NCBI RefSeq assembly: GCF_003073045.1 | Contig: NC_037590.1 | Coordinates: 34,604,327 to 34,668,326, forward strand | Reading direction: 5' to 3' | DNA from: Pomacea canaliculata | Lineage: Eukaryota; Mollusca; Gastropoda; Architaenioglossa; Ampullariidae | DNA length: 64,000 nt | Shown: in pieces, positions 19,389 to 36,093 of the stretch | Numbering within the stretch: the stretch's first letter is position 1 | Layout: each line of letters starts with the position of its first letter | Notes under the pieces: generated by a model | The model's input: the letters and a program-made list of their open reading frames with translations, nothing else | Told to the model about the DNA's origin: nothing | The model's database searches: none | Made by a program: the position numbers and the translations under genes

Positions 19389-21707
19389 TCACATGCTGAA
19401 GATTCTGTAAGCAGTCAGCAGCGCGGAACCACACACAGTGAGGAGGCTGAGGGACACAGACCTTGAGGCGGCGTTAAAATCTTGCAACAAATAATATAAA
19501 CTTTCATGACAATTCACCAGCATCTTGATTATCTTGTAAATAAGGAAAATGAACTACGACAAGTAATATCCACTTTCATGGTAATTCACCACCATCTTGA
19601 TGAGCTTGTACATAAGGAAAGTGAGCAGCGACAAATGATATAGTTAATTATAATAAGATAATTAAGTTTCATTTATTTAGGTTTCGTTTGTAAAATCCAT
19701 GAATCAATATATTACAATAGTTCTACAAGTGGTCCATAAAAAACGTTAGGCTGTGAAGAAATACAAGAAGCAACAGTAACAGTAACAAAATACTATACAT
19801 TATTACAGGAAATATTTTATGCATTGCTTAAAGAAATATTTGTACATGTATATTAAATTGTATATGTTTTAAAGAAGTATTTTATAGATTTTTAAAGGAA
19901 ATATTTTTATATACCAGGATATACTTTCAGCTCTTTCTGTCTCACACACACAAATCTAGTCAGGAATAGTGTATAAGCATAAATTCTGTGCAGGTAGTAT
20001 GTGACATATATTGTTTTCTCAAACGTTAATGTAGGATAATGTTTACTACTTGCAGGTGATGACAGGAAACGTCCCATTAATCGTGGGTTTAATTCTGGGG
20101 GTTTCTTAGATTTTAGCTCCATTTCTAAAGAAAATAAGAGTACACGTTGTTGCGATGAAATGCTGTTTAATATCAGTACATATGCACATTATCTACTTAC
20201 CACAATAAACGCCAGCAGCCTTCATATCATTCTCCAACTGTGGGTAATATATCGAGACATCTACCTGGCACGTTTGCGCGATACAGTTTAGAAAAGTCTT
20301 CATTATGCTGAAAGAAAAGTATTTATTTCTTTTTATATTCTGTGGACTAATCGCATTTTAGTCAAAGTGTAAGAAAGCATTTTAAGTTAAAAATTGCAGC
20401 ACTAATTCAGTAAAATGATTAAACACTTTAAGCAATTTCTGCCATTTTTAATTAATAATGAAGTAGAGGCAGTTGGAATGTTTTATGAAATGAGTGCGTT
20501 TTAGTTCCCCCCCCCCCTCAGCAAAAGTCCAGCAAACTTAAAATGAATGATTCACAAATTATGTATATGTATAAACTCAAATAAATAGTAAACCAATGAA
20601 CTGAGATGTGTTAACATAGTAAAATATTTCTTTTATGCTTTATATTTGTAATAGTAATAGTAATAGTAATAGTGAAGTAACACACGGGCAGATCTGCGCT
20701 GTAACTTCAAATGTTTTGAGAGCGTTCCCATAATCCGCCGCGCACGTATTGGCGCAGTAGCAGTGTGCGAGGCTTATGAAGAAAGCTGCAAATAATTGTT
20801 GATTGACTGTTAACAGATTTACACAGAAACCGATAGAGAATAATTTATGACCAGGCCATGACATTTTAAACTAAATAAAAAAAAAGAAAGCAGTTGAGCA
20901 ACATCTCATGTCTCTTGCGAGGACATTGTGACCAGAATTGCGTAGTACATGGCTATGTAAAATATATCGTCCATTACCGACTTTTTTTATTATATGACTG
21001 AGATAGGTTTTGCCGTGATGACGATGTGCTTGTACAAACATATATGACCTTCACAAACAGTGACGTGGATTTCTCTTAGAGGAAAGAACTTAACATGTTC
21101 CTTCATTCTTTAGAAACACTAGTGAATGCAGTGAAAGGACTTAAAAACTTTCTTTGTGGTAATAGATCTTTACATTGAATACCACAGTATCATTTGTAAA
21201 AGTATGATATACAAAAATATTTTTGAAAAAAGATATTTCTAAACAACGTATATACAATCAAGTGAAATATTTCACACTTGACAGGTCATTTGTGGTTGTG
21301 TAACTCATACCTCGTTCCAATTTTTAAATTAAAAATTGATCGAGCATGAATATAAATTAAAATAACATTAAAGTATCTATAAAGCTATACTCATGTAAAA
21401 AAAAACACCACACACACACACACACACACACACACACACACACACACACACACACACACACACACACACACACACACACACACACACACACACACACACA
21501 CACACACACACACACACACACAGAGGCTCCATTATGCTTTAATGTACCCGAGAAATTTCTCGCCCCAAACAAGAGATGAAACCCTCATCAATGAAAAGGC
21601 AAAGTAACAACAGGTTCTTCATGCTTGAATATGTTACAGAAGTATATTGACTGTAATAAAGTGTTCAACACTCACCAGTAAAAATGCAGAGACAACACGT
21701 ACTTCAT
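19389..21707 (-). pseudogene. Copy A: secreted seven-cysteine protein gene, signal exon frameshifted
   Basis: Four exons: 21676-21707, 20686-20785, 20201-20307 and 19389-19480, all with GT donors and AG acceptors. Exons 2-4 are open and in phase: exon 2 gives FFISLAHCYCANTC, exon 3 gives CIAQTC and ends VYCG, exon 4 ends LLTAYRIFSM-stop. Exon 1 starts MKYVLS but is 32 bases long, against 34 in copy B, so two bases are missing and the signal peptide no longer runs into exon 2. No other in-frame start was found, because the required frame has a TGA within exon 1. Repaired by length, the protein would be about 110 residues. A TATA box lies about 130 bases upstream. The gene is probably inactivated recently, or the indel is an assembly error. 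The family is not recognised. Its paralog is copy B. Confidence 0.8.
21408..21522. repeat. (CA)n microsatellite in the promoter-proximal intron of copy A
   Basis: About 115 bases of uninterrupted CA inside intron 1 of A. Copy B has only a short CA remnant at the same place (about 35985-35997). Confidence 0.95.
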
Positions 21708-21836
21708 GATGAACAGATTACCAAACCACTTTGAAAGACTTTGGACTGTTGTAGCAACAGCACTTGTTACTGCAGGTTGAACAACTGTATCCAGTTGTCG
21801 TGAAGTTGAGAGCGTGACACACTAAGCTATTCTGGA

Positions 21837-21845
21837 CTTTATATA
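21837..21845 (-). promoter_or_regulatory. TATA box of copy A
   Basis: TATATAAAG on the minus strand, about 130 bases upstream of the start codon. Copy B keeps the same sequence at the same spacing. Inverted CCAAT motifs follow further upstream (about 21880-21930). Confidence 0.65.
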
Positions 21846-33215: not shown

Positions 33216-33640
33216 CAAACACTGGTTATTATACATACAAAACTCACCTCGTGAGTCATCAAATGTAAGCGAAGAAATAAAACAAAATAATTGAGATATA
33301 CAAGGCTGTATATTTAGTCATGGCACGTGCTTTCTTCATGTAAGCATAAAGTAAAATATGTTGGATTAAATATATTTCGCTTTGTGACTGTCACATTATT
33401 TTTCAGATGTCAATGGTTAAAAGTTGCTGCTTAAAATTTAGGCTACCATTCTAGAACAAAACAACCATTTTTTAAACTAGCATACACGGGAACTAAAATA
33501 GAACAAAAAAGGTCAACAAATCTTGGCATGAGGACTATTTACATATGAAATATGCTAGCTGAGAAACCTAATATGTGAGGCTAGATAATGTTACAGAAAT
33601 AATTAAATAGTTCACTGTTTTGTCACACAGACTGAGAGGA

Positions 33641-36093
33641 TCACATGATGAAGATTCTGTAAGCAGTCAGAACCGCGGAGCCACACACAGTGAGGAGGCT
33701 GAGGGACACAGACCTTGAGGCGGCGTTTAAATCTTGTAGAAAAACAAAAACAAGCAGCAGCAGTAACTGTAACAAAATACTATACATTATAACAGCAAAT
33801 AATATAAACTGTCATGATAATTCACCAACATCTTGATAAACCAGTGTGGCTTGTACAGAAGGAAAGGGAGTAACGACAAATAATACAGTTAATTATAATA
33901 AGATAATTAAGTTTCATTTAGTGAGGTCTCGTTTGTAAAATTCATGAATCAGTCTATCAGTTGTTCCAGTGGTTCATAAAAAACGTTAGGCTGTGAAGAA
34001 ATACAAGGAGCAATAGTAAAAGTAACAAAATACTATACATTATTACAGGAAATATTATGTATTGTTTAAAGAAATATTTGTATATTAAATTGAATATTAT
34101 TTAAAGAAAATATTTTAGTATACCAGGATGTACTTTAAGCTCTTTTTCTCTCTCACAACAAAAGCTAGCAATAAATGGTGTATAAACATAAATTATGTGC
34201 AGGTAGTGTGTGACTAACATTGCTGTGGATCGATGACCGTGAATGATTGATCACTTGCTGTGAAAGGCAATCGATACAGAGGCTTGCAATCTGGCCTTCA
34301 CTTCATGTTCTGATGACTGTTAGCTTAAAGATGTCAGGGTCGCTACAGTCACTAAGCAACGGAATGTATATCCTTGTTTTTGCCGTTTGACCCGTTTTCT
34401 CATACCAGGAATATGTCTAGCACTGGCAGGTGATGTTTAGCAGACAGGAAACGTCCCATTAAAGTGGTTTTAATTCTGGGGGTTTTCTTTGGTTTTAGTT
34501 CCCTTCCTATAGAAAATAAGAGTACATGTTGTTGCGATGAAATGCTGTTTATATTAGTAGATAATTGTGATGATTATCTACTTACCACACGTAAAACCAT
34601 ATTTCTTGTACACCTCATTCAGTTGTGATTGATATTGTGACACATCTGTATTGCAAGTTTGCTCAACACAGTTCTTTAACTTCTGCATTAAGCTGCAAGA
34701 AAAGTTATTTTTTTATATTCTGTGGCCTAATCGCATTTTATTCAAAGTTTAAGAAAACATGTTAAGCTTTAAAAAATGGCAGCACTAATTCAGATTAAAC
34801 ACTTTAAGTAATTTCTGCCCTTTTTTAAATAATGAAATACAGGCAGTTGGAACGTTTTATAAAAATTAGTGCCCTACCAGCAAAAGTCAAGCAAAAGTAA
34901 AAATGATTAATTAAAAAATTATGCATATGTATAAACTCAAATAAAAAGTAAAACAATGAACTGAGATGTGTTAACATAGAAACATATTTCTTTTATGCTT
35001 TATATTTGTAAAAATAATAGTTTAGTAACACACGGGCAGATCTGCGATGCAGTTGCAGTTGTTAACCCTTGGAGAGCCGACGTATATTCGCCAGTGCACG
35101 TGTCGATGCAGCCACAGTGTGCAGGGCTGAGGAAGAAAGCTGCAAAAAATTGTTGATTGACTGTTTACAGATTTACACAGAAACCGATAGAGAATAATTT
35201 ATGACCAGGCCATGACAATTGAAACTAAATAAAGAAAAAGAAAGCAGTCGAGCAGCATCTCATGTCTCTTGTGAGGACATTGTGACTAGAATCGTGTAGT
35301 ACTTGGCTATGTACAATATATCGTCCTTTACCGACATTTTATTATATGACTGGGATATGTTTTGCTGTTATGATGGCGTGCTTGTATATACATATGTGAT
35401 CCTCAGAAACAGTCAGACGGATTTCTCTTGGACGAAAGAACAACTTTACACGTTCCTTTACTCTTTAGAAACACTCTAGAGCAGACCTGGGCAAATGCCG
35501 GCCCGCGGGCCGAATCCGGCCCGTCTCCTGTCTCTGACCGGCCCGCCCGCTGGCCCGCCCGCCAGTATATATATTATATATACAGTATTGGGTAAAACTG
35601 AGTTAACTACATTAGTCCGGCCCTCTAGAACCACACCAGTTTCTCATGCGGCCCCTTGGGAAAATTAATTGCCCACCCCTGCTCTAGAGCATGCATCGAA
35701 ATGACTTAAAGAATTGTTCCTTTGTGGGAATCAATCTTGACAGTAAATTTATGTGGATTCTAATACCACAGTATCATTTTTAAAAGTCTGATATATGAAA
35801 AATATTTTTTGAAGAAAGATAGTTCGAAACAACATGTATACAACCAAGTGAAATATTTCACACTTGACAGGTCATTGGTGGTTGTGTAAACTCATAACCT
35901 CGTTCCAATTTGAAATAAAAATTGATCGAGCATGAATACTAATTAAAATAAAAGTAAAGTATTTATAAAGCTAAAAAAATACACAACCACACACAGTTTT
36001 CATAATTATTTAATGTAGCAGAGAAATCTATCACTCCAAACAAAAGATGAAACACTCACCAGTGAAGATACAGACTGACAACACGTACTTCAT
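33641..36093 (-). CDS. Copy B: secreted seven-cysteine protein with hydrophobic C-terminus, intact
   Basis: Four exons: 36060-36093, 35034-35139, 34586-34692 and 33641-33732, total 339 bases, 112 residues. Intron phases are 1, 2, 1 and all splice sites are canonical. Exon 1 encodes the signal start MKYVLSVCIFTG. The hydrophobic stretch continues into exon 2 (AFFLSPA), so cleavage probably falls just before HCGC. The mature part has seven cysteines (C-x-C-x3-C, then C, C-x4-C, and C before G). Exon 4 ends in a Ser/Leu-rich hydrophobic tail, VLTAYRIFIM-stop, with small residues (N-A-A-S) before it. It may be GPI-anchored or membrane-anchored at the cell surface. No known domain is recognised. 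Introns and exon 4 are close to copy A, but exons 2 and 3 are very different. A TATA box at 36227-36235 supports transcription. Confidence 0.85.
35474..35689. mobile_element. hAT MITE with 8-bp target duplication CTCTAGAG
   Basis: Element 35482-35681 (200 bases), same family as 22386, starts CAGACCTGGGC and ends GCCCACCCCTG with CTCTAGAG on both sides. The matching position in the first arm (about 21118) lacks it. Confidence 0.85.

Follow-up and report, generated by a model that had tools for sequence, protein, structure and literature searches.

Probable diversifying selection on the domain exons of a tandem gene array in the apple snail Pomacea canaliculata

Introduction

Why do the domain exons of neighbouring gene copies differ far more than the introns that separate them? 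This question is raised by a 64,000-nucleotide stretch of Pomacea canaliculata DNA (the window). From two of its gene copies, A and B, the initial annotation proposed either diversifying selection on the mature domain or replacement of exons by conversion from another copy. Because each duplicate brings along its own introns and intergenic DNA as a neutral standard, the locus lets adaptive protein change be studied with a built-in control.

Gene layout of the array

The window contains a tandem array derived from segmental duplication, and five gene copies, A to E, as well as a decayed remnant, F, were located in it (Table 1). A and B have four exons apiece, with intron phases 1-2-1 and GT..AG borders. 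The products of the array are about 110 aa long and carry a signal peptide, a six-cysteine domain, which is probably helical with a three-helix fold, and a hydrophobic GPI-like tail. In the proposed design, each unit carries a gene for a small secreted protein, in which exon 1 and the start of exon 2 would encode the signal peptide, exons 2 and 3 the domain, and exon 4 a hydrophobic tail of the kind seen in GPI-anchor signals. The database protein P0002 corresponds to exon 1 of gene E joined to exons 2-4 of gene C.

Table 1. Positions of genes, exons and the remnant copy in the window
Feature	Position	Strand	Remark
Gene A whole	19389-21707	-	four exons
Gene A exon 4	19389..19480	-	hydrophobic, GPI-like tail and stop; 5/92 differences from B
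Gene A exon 3	20201..20307	-	cysteine domain, second half; 44/107 differences from B
Gene A exon 2	20686..20785	-	signal peptide end and first half of domain
Gene A exon 1	21676..21707	-	start of signal peptide; shorter than B-E by 2 nt
Gene B whole	33641-36093	-	four exons; intact 112-aa protein
Gene B exon 4	33641..33732	-	
Gene B exon 3	34586..34692	-	
Gene B exon 2	35034..35139	-	6 nt longer than A
Gene B exon 1	36060..36093	-	
Gene C exon 4	27057..27166	-	12 nt longer than D, E
Gene C exon 3	27588..27682	-	
Gene C exon 2	28355..28451	-	
Gene C exon 1	28921..28954	-	C: intact 111-aa protein
Gene D exon 4	44588..44685	-	
Gene D exon 3	45110..45202	-	two 1-nt gaps relative to C (frameshifted); 37/93 differences from C
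Gene D exon 2	46233..46329	-	
Gene D exon 1	46791..46824	-	
Gene E exon 4	51808..51905	-	
Gene E exon 3	52321..52415	-	
Gene E exon 2	53307..53403	-	
Gene E exon 1	53855..53888	-	E: intact protein of 107 aa, the same as P0001 (LOC112573186)
Remnant F	56111..56629	-	decayed A-type copy; two BLAST pieces overlapping borders of A exons 2, 3

The six mature-domain cysteines are retained in the A-B, C-D, C-E and D-E comparisons, with the two gapped codons of D omitted. Cysteines, splice sites and frame had all been described as kept; the cysteines and the GT..AG borders are, but the frame is not in all of gene A, whose exon 1 is 2 nt short and which, with the splice pattern of B, loses its reading frame. 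If splicing used an acceptor lying 13 nt inside exon 2 of gene A, the frame would be open, but the signal peptide would be short and poor.

Divergence of exons and introns

For A and B, the initial annotation had put the differences at about 44 of 107 bases in exon 3 and about 5 of 92 in exon 4, and both counts came out exactly. Exon 2 had been called similarly different with a 6-base length change, in agreement with the 29/100 differences and 6-nt gap that we found; exon 1 showed 3/32 differences and a 2-nt gap. The introns differed at 122/684, 37/337 and 109/655 positions (11-18%), and 8 of the leading 100 aligned positions in intron 2 differed, close to the 7% or so reported just beyond exon 2. 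The steps in divergence at the exon borders are sharp.

In the part of the A-B block that BLAST aligned (6,526 bases), intergenic DNA differed by 12.7% and introns by 12.0%, and overlapping non-exonic windows of 100 bases (n=6,099) had a mean of 12.6, a 99% quantile of 23 and a maximum of 28 differences, all somewhat low because BLAST alignments omit the least alignable stretches. Exon 3 (37/104 BLAST-aligned bases) lies far above this range, and exon 2 barely exceeds its maximum. Since the introns diverge about as much as intergenic DNA and no non-exonic window exceeds 28 differences, the exons are the fast part. The same excess of exon over intron divergence was found among C, D and E, strong in pairs with D and weaker in C-E.

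Tests of selection

For exons 2-3 of C-D, Ka was 0.65, Ks 0.12 and intron K 0.14, and omega reached 17.6 when free and 6.2 with t fixed to the introns (omega>1, P=7e-7). The amino acid was changed in 35 of the 53 codons and a silent change was found in 1; none of the 10 four-fold sites differed, and changes at codon positions 1, 2 and 3 numbered 26, 22 and 11, the third being the fewest. Positive selection in C-D is clear. The one-omega test also gave omega>1 for D-E (P=3.8e-5) and, marginally, for C-E (P=0.046). In site-class models the fast class lay above 1 with P=4e-8 in C-D, 1e-4 in C-E and 3e-6 in D-E; these pair tests share sequences, the D-E site-class fit ran to an extreme omega, and t for D-E was fixed at 0.15 in the site-class fits and 0.218 in the one-omega test. 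After removal of the codons following the first indel of D, C-D gave nd 38.7/95.3 and sd 3.3/24.7 (one-sided P=0.007) and D-E gave P=0.0096.

The D lineage carries most of the C/D/E excess (38/190 exon 2-3 sites vs 81/1385 intron sites); the excess of the C lineage is weak (17/190 exon 2-3 sites, P=0.067), and no excess was found in the E lineage (10/190 vs 99/1385, P=0.44). With exons taken singly, nonsynonymous divergence did not significantly exceed intron divergence for exon 2 (C-E, P=0.38; D-E, P=0.44) or for exon 3 in C-E (P=0.083). The tail exon is under strong constraint only in A-B (Ka 0.05); its Ka of 0.08-0.15 in C/D/E, with Ks of 0-0.04, indicates that change in these copies is not restricted to the domain.

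In A-B, the NG86 method gave Ka 0.53 and Ks 0.51, a dN/dS of about 1, and the one-omega likelihood ratio test gave no significant evidence of omega>1 (P=0.24); for exon 3 by itself omega was 0.90. The site-class model revealed a fast class with omega about 6 (P=0.001), a statistic reached in 0/100 null simulations. Changes by codon position numbered 28, 18 and 22. Exon 3 had a Ks of 0.78 vs 0.18 for introns and 0.09 for exon 4, and its synonymous divergence, expressed as t, exceeded that of the introns (P=0.0024, one-omega; P=0.012, site-class; 0/100 simulations). The simulations, for the fast class as well as for exon 3, are approximate: their parameters were rounded, their codon frequencies came from introns, and their optimiser was looser than that of the site-class fits. 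Diversifying selection, as proposed for the mature domain, has its cleanest support in C-D and D-E, pairs outside the earlier comparison, and for A-B itself is supported in the site-class model but not in the one-omega test. The pattern named beforehand as a refutation, with introns and synonymous sites equally diverged and dN/dS under 1, did not appear.

Protein family searches

Eight protein database relatives were found, seven named P. canaliculata and one a 68-aa fragment (P0008) resembling exon 2 of P0007, by a search that needs shared 5-residue words and may miss distant relatives. The proteins matched no known family in the searches made and were found by name only in P. canaliculata. 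Further members of the array are LOC112574197, LOC112574490, LOC112566749 and LOC112574865. Pfam gave nothing above the cut-off for B, C and seven database relatives, nor for eight mature domains; the PDB sequence search gave nothing credible (antibody chains, E 0.17-0.22; MAD2 rows, E 0.1-0.34; an amidohydrolase, E 1.4), and Rfam gave 0 matches at the gathering score. None of the six LOC numbers is named in the main texts of the open papers searched, and no paper on this family turned up among those listed. One predicted structural model was of modest confidence, and the VIA-align structural comparison returned only middling matches.

The hydropathy of B, C and E, with 15-residue means of 1.86-1.92 in the C-terminal tail, fits a putative GPI-type layout of N-terminal signal and C-terminal hydrophobic tail with no cytoplasmic part. 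An Arg lies near the C-terminal end in A, B and E. A Ly6/uPAR three-finger identity was not supported: no LU-type Pfam match was found at E<=1 for B, C and seven relatives, and the mature domain has six cysteines. The hydrophobic C-terminal tail and the split of the domain over exons 2-3 do not fit the conotoxin layout of signal, propeptide and short cysteine-rich mature peptide without a tail. Homology to the N-terminal domain of RGM (repulsive guidance molecules; PF06535) was not established: the family was listed below threshold in 3/8 mature domains, its best score was 16.3 bits vs a gathering score of 24.2, the hhalign score against RGM_N was not significant, being matched by 7/200 decoys, and RGM structures came up as weak matches to the predicted model. 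Cysteine spacings, counted by eye with no set tolerance, were 3-19-8-4-21 in B, 3-16-8-3-18 in C and E, and 4-22-8-7-21 in RGMB.

Discussion

The array probably owes its pattern to diversifying selection acting on domain exons 2-3 after segmental duplication. Exons are accelerated in A-B and in the pairs with D, C-D and D-E have too many nonsynonymous changes, and A-B contains a fast class of sites. Once duplicated, the copies would have been subject to recurrent, favoured amino-acid-changing substitutions in the domain, with cysteines and splice sites retained, and exons 2-3 would thereby have outpaced introns and intergenic DNA.

A different history seems to us possible though rather doubtful: older, divergent copies may have replaced exons 2-3 in A or B (and in D) through ectopic conversion or unequal exchange, in which case the divergence of these exons would predate the segmental duplication. 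It accounts for the high Ks and t of A-B exon 3, and exon-wise protein likeness is discordant: exons 1-2 of B are nearest P0006 (90, 60%) and its exon 3 nearest P0007 (47%), while exon 3 of A is nearest P0003/P0004 (52%) and exon 4 of A, B and P0003 is 86-90% alike. Informative non-coding sites of C/D/E are also clustered by pattern, in part owing to a far more diverged stretch upstream of D. However, such likeness may also reflect retained ancestral residues, and C-D and D-E synonymous divergence does not exceed intron divergence. Divergence is not raised in the introns next to exons 2 and 3, nor do these introns show a donor tract, so that in several genes conversion tracts would have to end just where the exons do. 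The A-B exon 3 synonymous excess is not expected from selection alone and hints at import from an older copy; an added contribution of this kind, from an older paralog, is likely for that exon.

The same excess would arise if ectopic conversion kept the introns and exon 4 alike while selection shielded exons 2-3, which would then show their true, older age. This is quite improbable and is largely rejected, since the introns are no closer than the intergenic DNA of the A-B block, and in C-D the synonymous sites of the exons show no greater age than the introns. Mutation targeted to a hypermutable domain, in place of selection, fits the raised synonymous sites of A-B exon 3 and has a parallel in the mature exon of conotoxin genes, where Dn and Ds both rise (PMC3862624); we consider it very improbable, given the unchanged four-fold sites of C-D and third positions that change least in C-D, though not in A-B. 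That A and D have merely lost constraint or are decaying as pseudogenes, as suggested by the deficit in A exon 1 and the gaps in D exon 3, is more improbable still: neutral decay cannot outrun introns, the ratio of exon 2-3 Ka to intron K being 2.95 in A-B, 4.61 in C-D and 2.32 in D-E, and the cysteines are retained. Simple neutral decay is therefore rejected, and the frameshifts of A and D may stem from decay that set in once a phase of selection was over, or from errors in the sequence.

The proteins may be displayed at the cell surface, and their changing surface may face a changing partner: a pathogen or parasite, a gamete or mate, or self. In this invasive snail, for which PMC11417965 reportedly covers 173 genomes, they would be candidates for a role in recognition, either between host and parasite or in reproduction. 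A bolder and unlikely reading is that of an apple-snail-specific cell-surface recognition family diversified in three ways at once: two domain exons would be under positive selection, whole exons would be imported from one tandem copy into another, and shared signal exons would be spliced across genes, the last idea being grounded in P0002.

Comparison with known systems

RGM proteins are GPI-anchored. Their N-terminal domain has six cysteines like that of the snail proteins, with a spacing that may be similar; helices and a membrane-tethered ectodomain would be further shared traits (the snail helices and tether being putative), but homology is not significant and the short snail proteins have no room for the remainder of an RGM.

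Conotoxins as a rule have a propeptide and a short mature peptide and are not known to have a hydrophobic tail; no sequence match between them and the snail proteins was found, and nothing here points to venom. Like the snail array, their genes, as described in PMC3862624, have a conserved signal exon and introns, mostly phase 1 then phase 2, and a hypervariable mature exon in which Dn and Ds are both raised. For viperid and elapid three-finger toxins, PMC2711939 describes introns more than 85% alike and radically changed exon segments ("accelerated segment switch in exons", ASSET), with cysteines and signal peptide kept and changes in exons II and III, for which its authors argue segment switching. 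The snail array is similar in its alike introns, changed domain exons and kept cysteines; it differs in that C-D looks like point substitution at a normal synonymous rate, and in its six cysteines and lack of a three-finger match.

Crotaline snake venom phospholipase A2 (PLA2) gene arrays reportedly show accelerated evolution, with KA/KS>1 and low intron KN. In the small serum protein (SSP) array, two young pairs have Ka/Ks of 1.739 and 1.536 and intron K of 0.0649 and 0.0488 (PMC6609765). The snail array shares with both tandem paralogs whose introns are far less diverged than their coding exons, whereas no sequence relation was found, and the snail genes have a GPI-like tail vs the venom or serum secretion of the snake proteins. 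Diversifying selection is an already known evolutionary mode; the family here is without known relatives outside Pomacea in the searches made. Coding divergence above intron divergence in tandem paralogs, the mark of accelerated-evolution families, was found in the snail array, and Ka/Ks>1 in the mature domain was found in C-D and D-E by the one-omega test, in A-B by the site-class model only and marginally in C-E. This exon pattern recalls immune, mating and venom proteins, in which selection favours change.

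Organization of the gene array

The window contains five recognisable copies of a single gene, all on the minus strand; with increasing position they follow one another as A, C, B, D and E, and the pair described initially is A and B. Self-comparison showed that the copies are carried on segmental duplications, with offsets of roughly 14-18 kb for A-B and C-D and 7 kb for D-E. A to E are each split into four exons by GT..AG introns whose phases are 1, 2 and 1, and the intact proteins have 112 (B), 111 (C) and 107 (E) residues. A and D are frameshifted as sequenced, because exon 1 of A is short by 2 nt and exon 3 of D carries two 1-nt gaps. 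In exon 2 of A, an acceptor 13 nt downstream would open the frame; the resulting signal peptide would be short and poor.

Gene copies and other elements (window positions)
Feature	Position	Strand	Remarks
Gene A	19389-21707	minus	exon 1 21676-21707
Gene C	27057-28954	minus	exon 2 28355-28451
Gene B	33641-36093	minus	
Gene D	44588-46824	minus	
Gene E	51808-53888	minus	exon 1 53855-53888
Decayed sixth copy F	~56.1-56.6 kb		
Palindromic element, imperfect ~15-base repeats	23270-23685		arms 23270-23377 and 23578-23685, 96% complementary
Non-LTR retrotransposon reverse transcriptase (RT) open frame, 707 aa	13470-15593		RVT_1 match
Further RT-like frames	10054-12836	minus	by eye
hAT transposase dimerisation fragment	49682-50233		PF05699

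A TATATAAA box lies 138 nt (~21845) and 142 nt (~36235) upstream of the ATG in A and B, respectively (approximate coordinates), whereas TATA[AT]A was not found within 400 nt upstream of C, D and E, so the A/B and C/D/E clades may use different promoters. Two copies of a short element, 80% alike, are located upstream of A (22378-22565) and within intron 1 of B (35474-35688). They occupy different relative places and are likely separate insertions that followed the duplication.

Divergence of exons and introns

Our recount of the A-B differences agreed with the by-eye counts of the initial annotation for exon 3 (44/107), the 6-nt gap of exon 2 and exon 4 (5/92). Exon 2 differs at 29/100 bases besides its gap, and the introns at 122/684, 37/337 and 109/655. 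Per-25-base profiles placed the divergence steps at exon borders. Where exon 2 begins with signal-peptide sequence, divergence stays at the intron level in A-B (4/25) and is lower in C-D (0), C-E (1) and D-E (1). In the A-B block, introns (12.0%) agree with intergenic sequence (12.7%), and 6,099 overlapping non-exonic 100-base windows reach a maximum of 28 differences, indicating that the domain exons are fast and the introns not unusually slow. Among C, D and E, the second clade, exon 3 differences amount to 37/93 (C-D), 33/93 (D-E) and 17/95 (C-E) bases, and introns 1 and 3 diverge by 0.08-0.14; D-E intron 2 (0.247) probably includes poorly alignable sequence that inflates the D-E intron figure.

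Selection and possible exon import

NG86 divergence of mature exon 2 plus exon 3
Pair	Ka	Ks	Introns
C-D	0.65	0.12	0.14
D-E	0.48	0.16	0.21 (intron 2 probably poorly alignable in part)
C-E	0.24	0.14	0.14
A-B	0.53	0.51	0.18

Using codon likelihood with neutral frequencies taken from introns, we found omega >1 in C-D (P=7e-7), D-E (P=3.8e-5) and C-E (P=0.046), which share sequences and are mutually non-independent; omega was not significantly >1 in A-B (P=0.24). When sites were divided into two classes, omega of the faster class exceeded 1 in all four pairs, A-B included (omega 6.2, P=0.001), and the A-B test statistic was matched by 0/100 simulations without positive selection. Of the 53 C-D codons, 17 are identical, 1 has a silent difference and 35 change the amino acid, and 0/10 four-fold sites differ. 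The nonsynonymous excess persisted when codons after the first indel of D were dropped (one-sided P=0.007). For single exons, nonsynonymous divergence was not significantly above introns in exon 2 of C-E and D-E and exon 3 of C-E. Exon 4 in C/D/E has Ka (0.08-0.15) above Ks (0-0.04), though not above introns.

The initial annotation had proposed diversifying selection or exon conversion for A and B. Several results, among them the single-exon and exon 4 values just given, speak against selection as the sole cause. Synonymous divergence of A-B exon 3 exceeds that of introns (P=0.0024, or P=0.012 under the two-class model; 0/100 simulations), against an exon 4 Ks of 0.09, and the exons disagree as to which other family members their protein sequence resembles most. 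These results suit an exon brought in from an older copy; however, no donor tract is seen in the flanking introns. The C/D/E burst falls mainly on the D lineage (38/190 exon sites vs 81/1385 intron sites, P=1.5e-9), with a weak excess in C (17/190 exon sites, P=0.067) and none in E (10/190, P=0.44). That D, the most accelerated copy, is frameshifted may reflect later loss, sequence error or import.

Database relatives

Protein searches found 8 relatives, 7 of them Pomacea canaliculata proteins and the eighth a 68-aa fragment. The product of E is identical to P0001 (LOC112573186) over its whole length. P0002 (LOC112573172 isoform X1) exactly joins exon 1 of E to exons 2-4 of C, whose own exon 1 differs; its first exon is an allelic form of C exon 1 or else was joined by splicing over ~25 kb that skips D and B. 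No identical protein was found for A, B or D among the listed cluster representatives, three clusters having a further member. The six LOC numbers of the family were not found mentioned in the main texts of the open-access papers searched.

Predicted protein and comparison with known families

All six cysteines of the mature domains are retained in the four pairs compared. The structural model, based on 7 sequences, places three helices along the domain (pLDDT ~72) and is of low confidence at its start and in the tail. The hydrophobic C-terminal tail appears to resemble a GPI signal. Most likely, the product would work as a tethered or secreted recognition domain, with its surface pressed to change and its disulfide frame kept.

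The cysteine spacing, counted by eye (B 3-19-8-4-21; C and E 3-16-8-3-18), appears similar to that of the RGM N-terminal domain (RGMB 4-22-8-7-21), to which 3/8 domains gave sub-threshold Pfam matches; because 7/200 decoys equalled or beat the profile comparison score, we do not claim homology to RGM. Every test made on the snail genes was negative for membership of the snake venom/serum protein or conotoxin families; the way they have evolved matches that described for arrays of snake venom and serum proteins and for conotoxins (PMC6609765, PMC2711939, PMC3862624).
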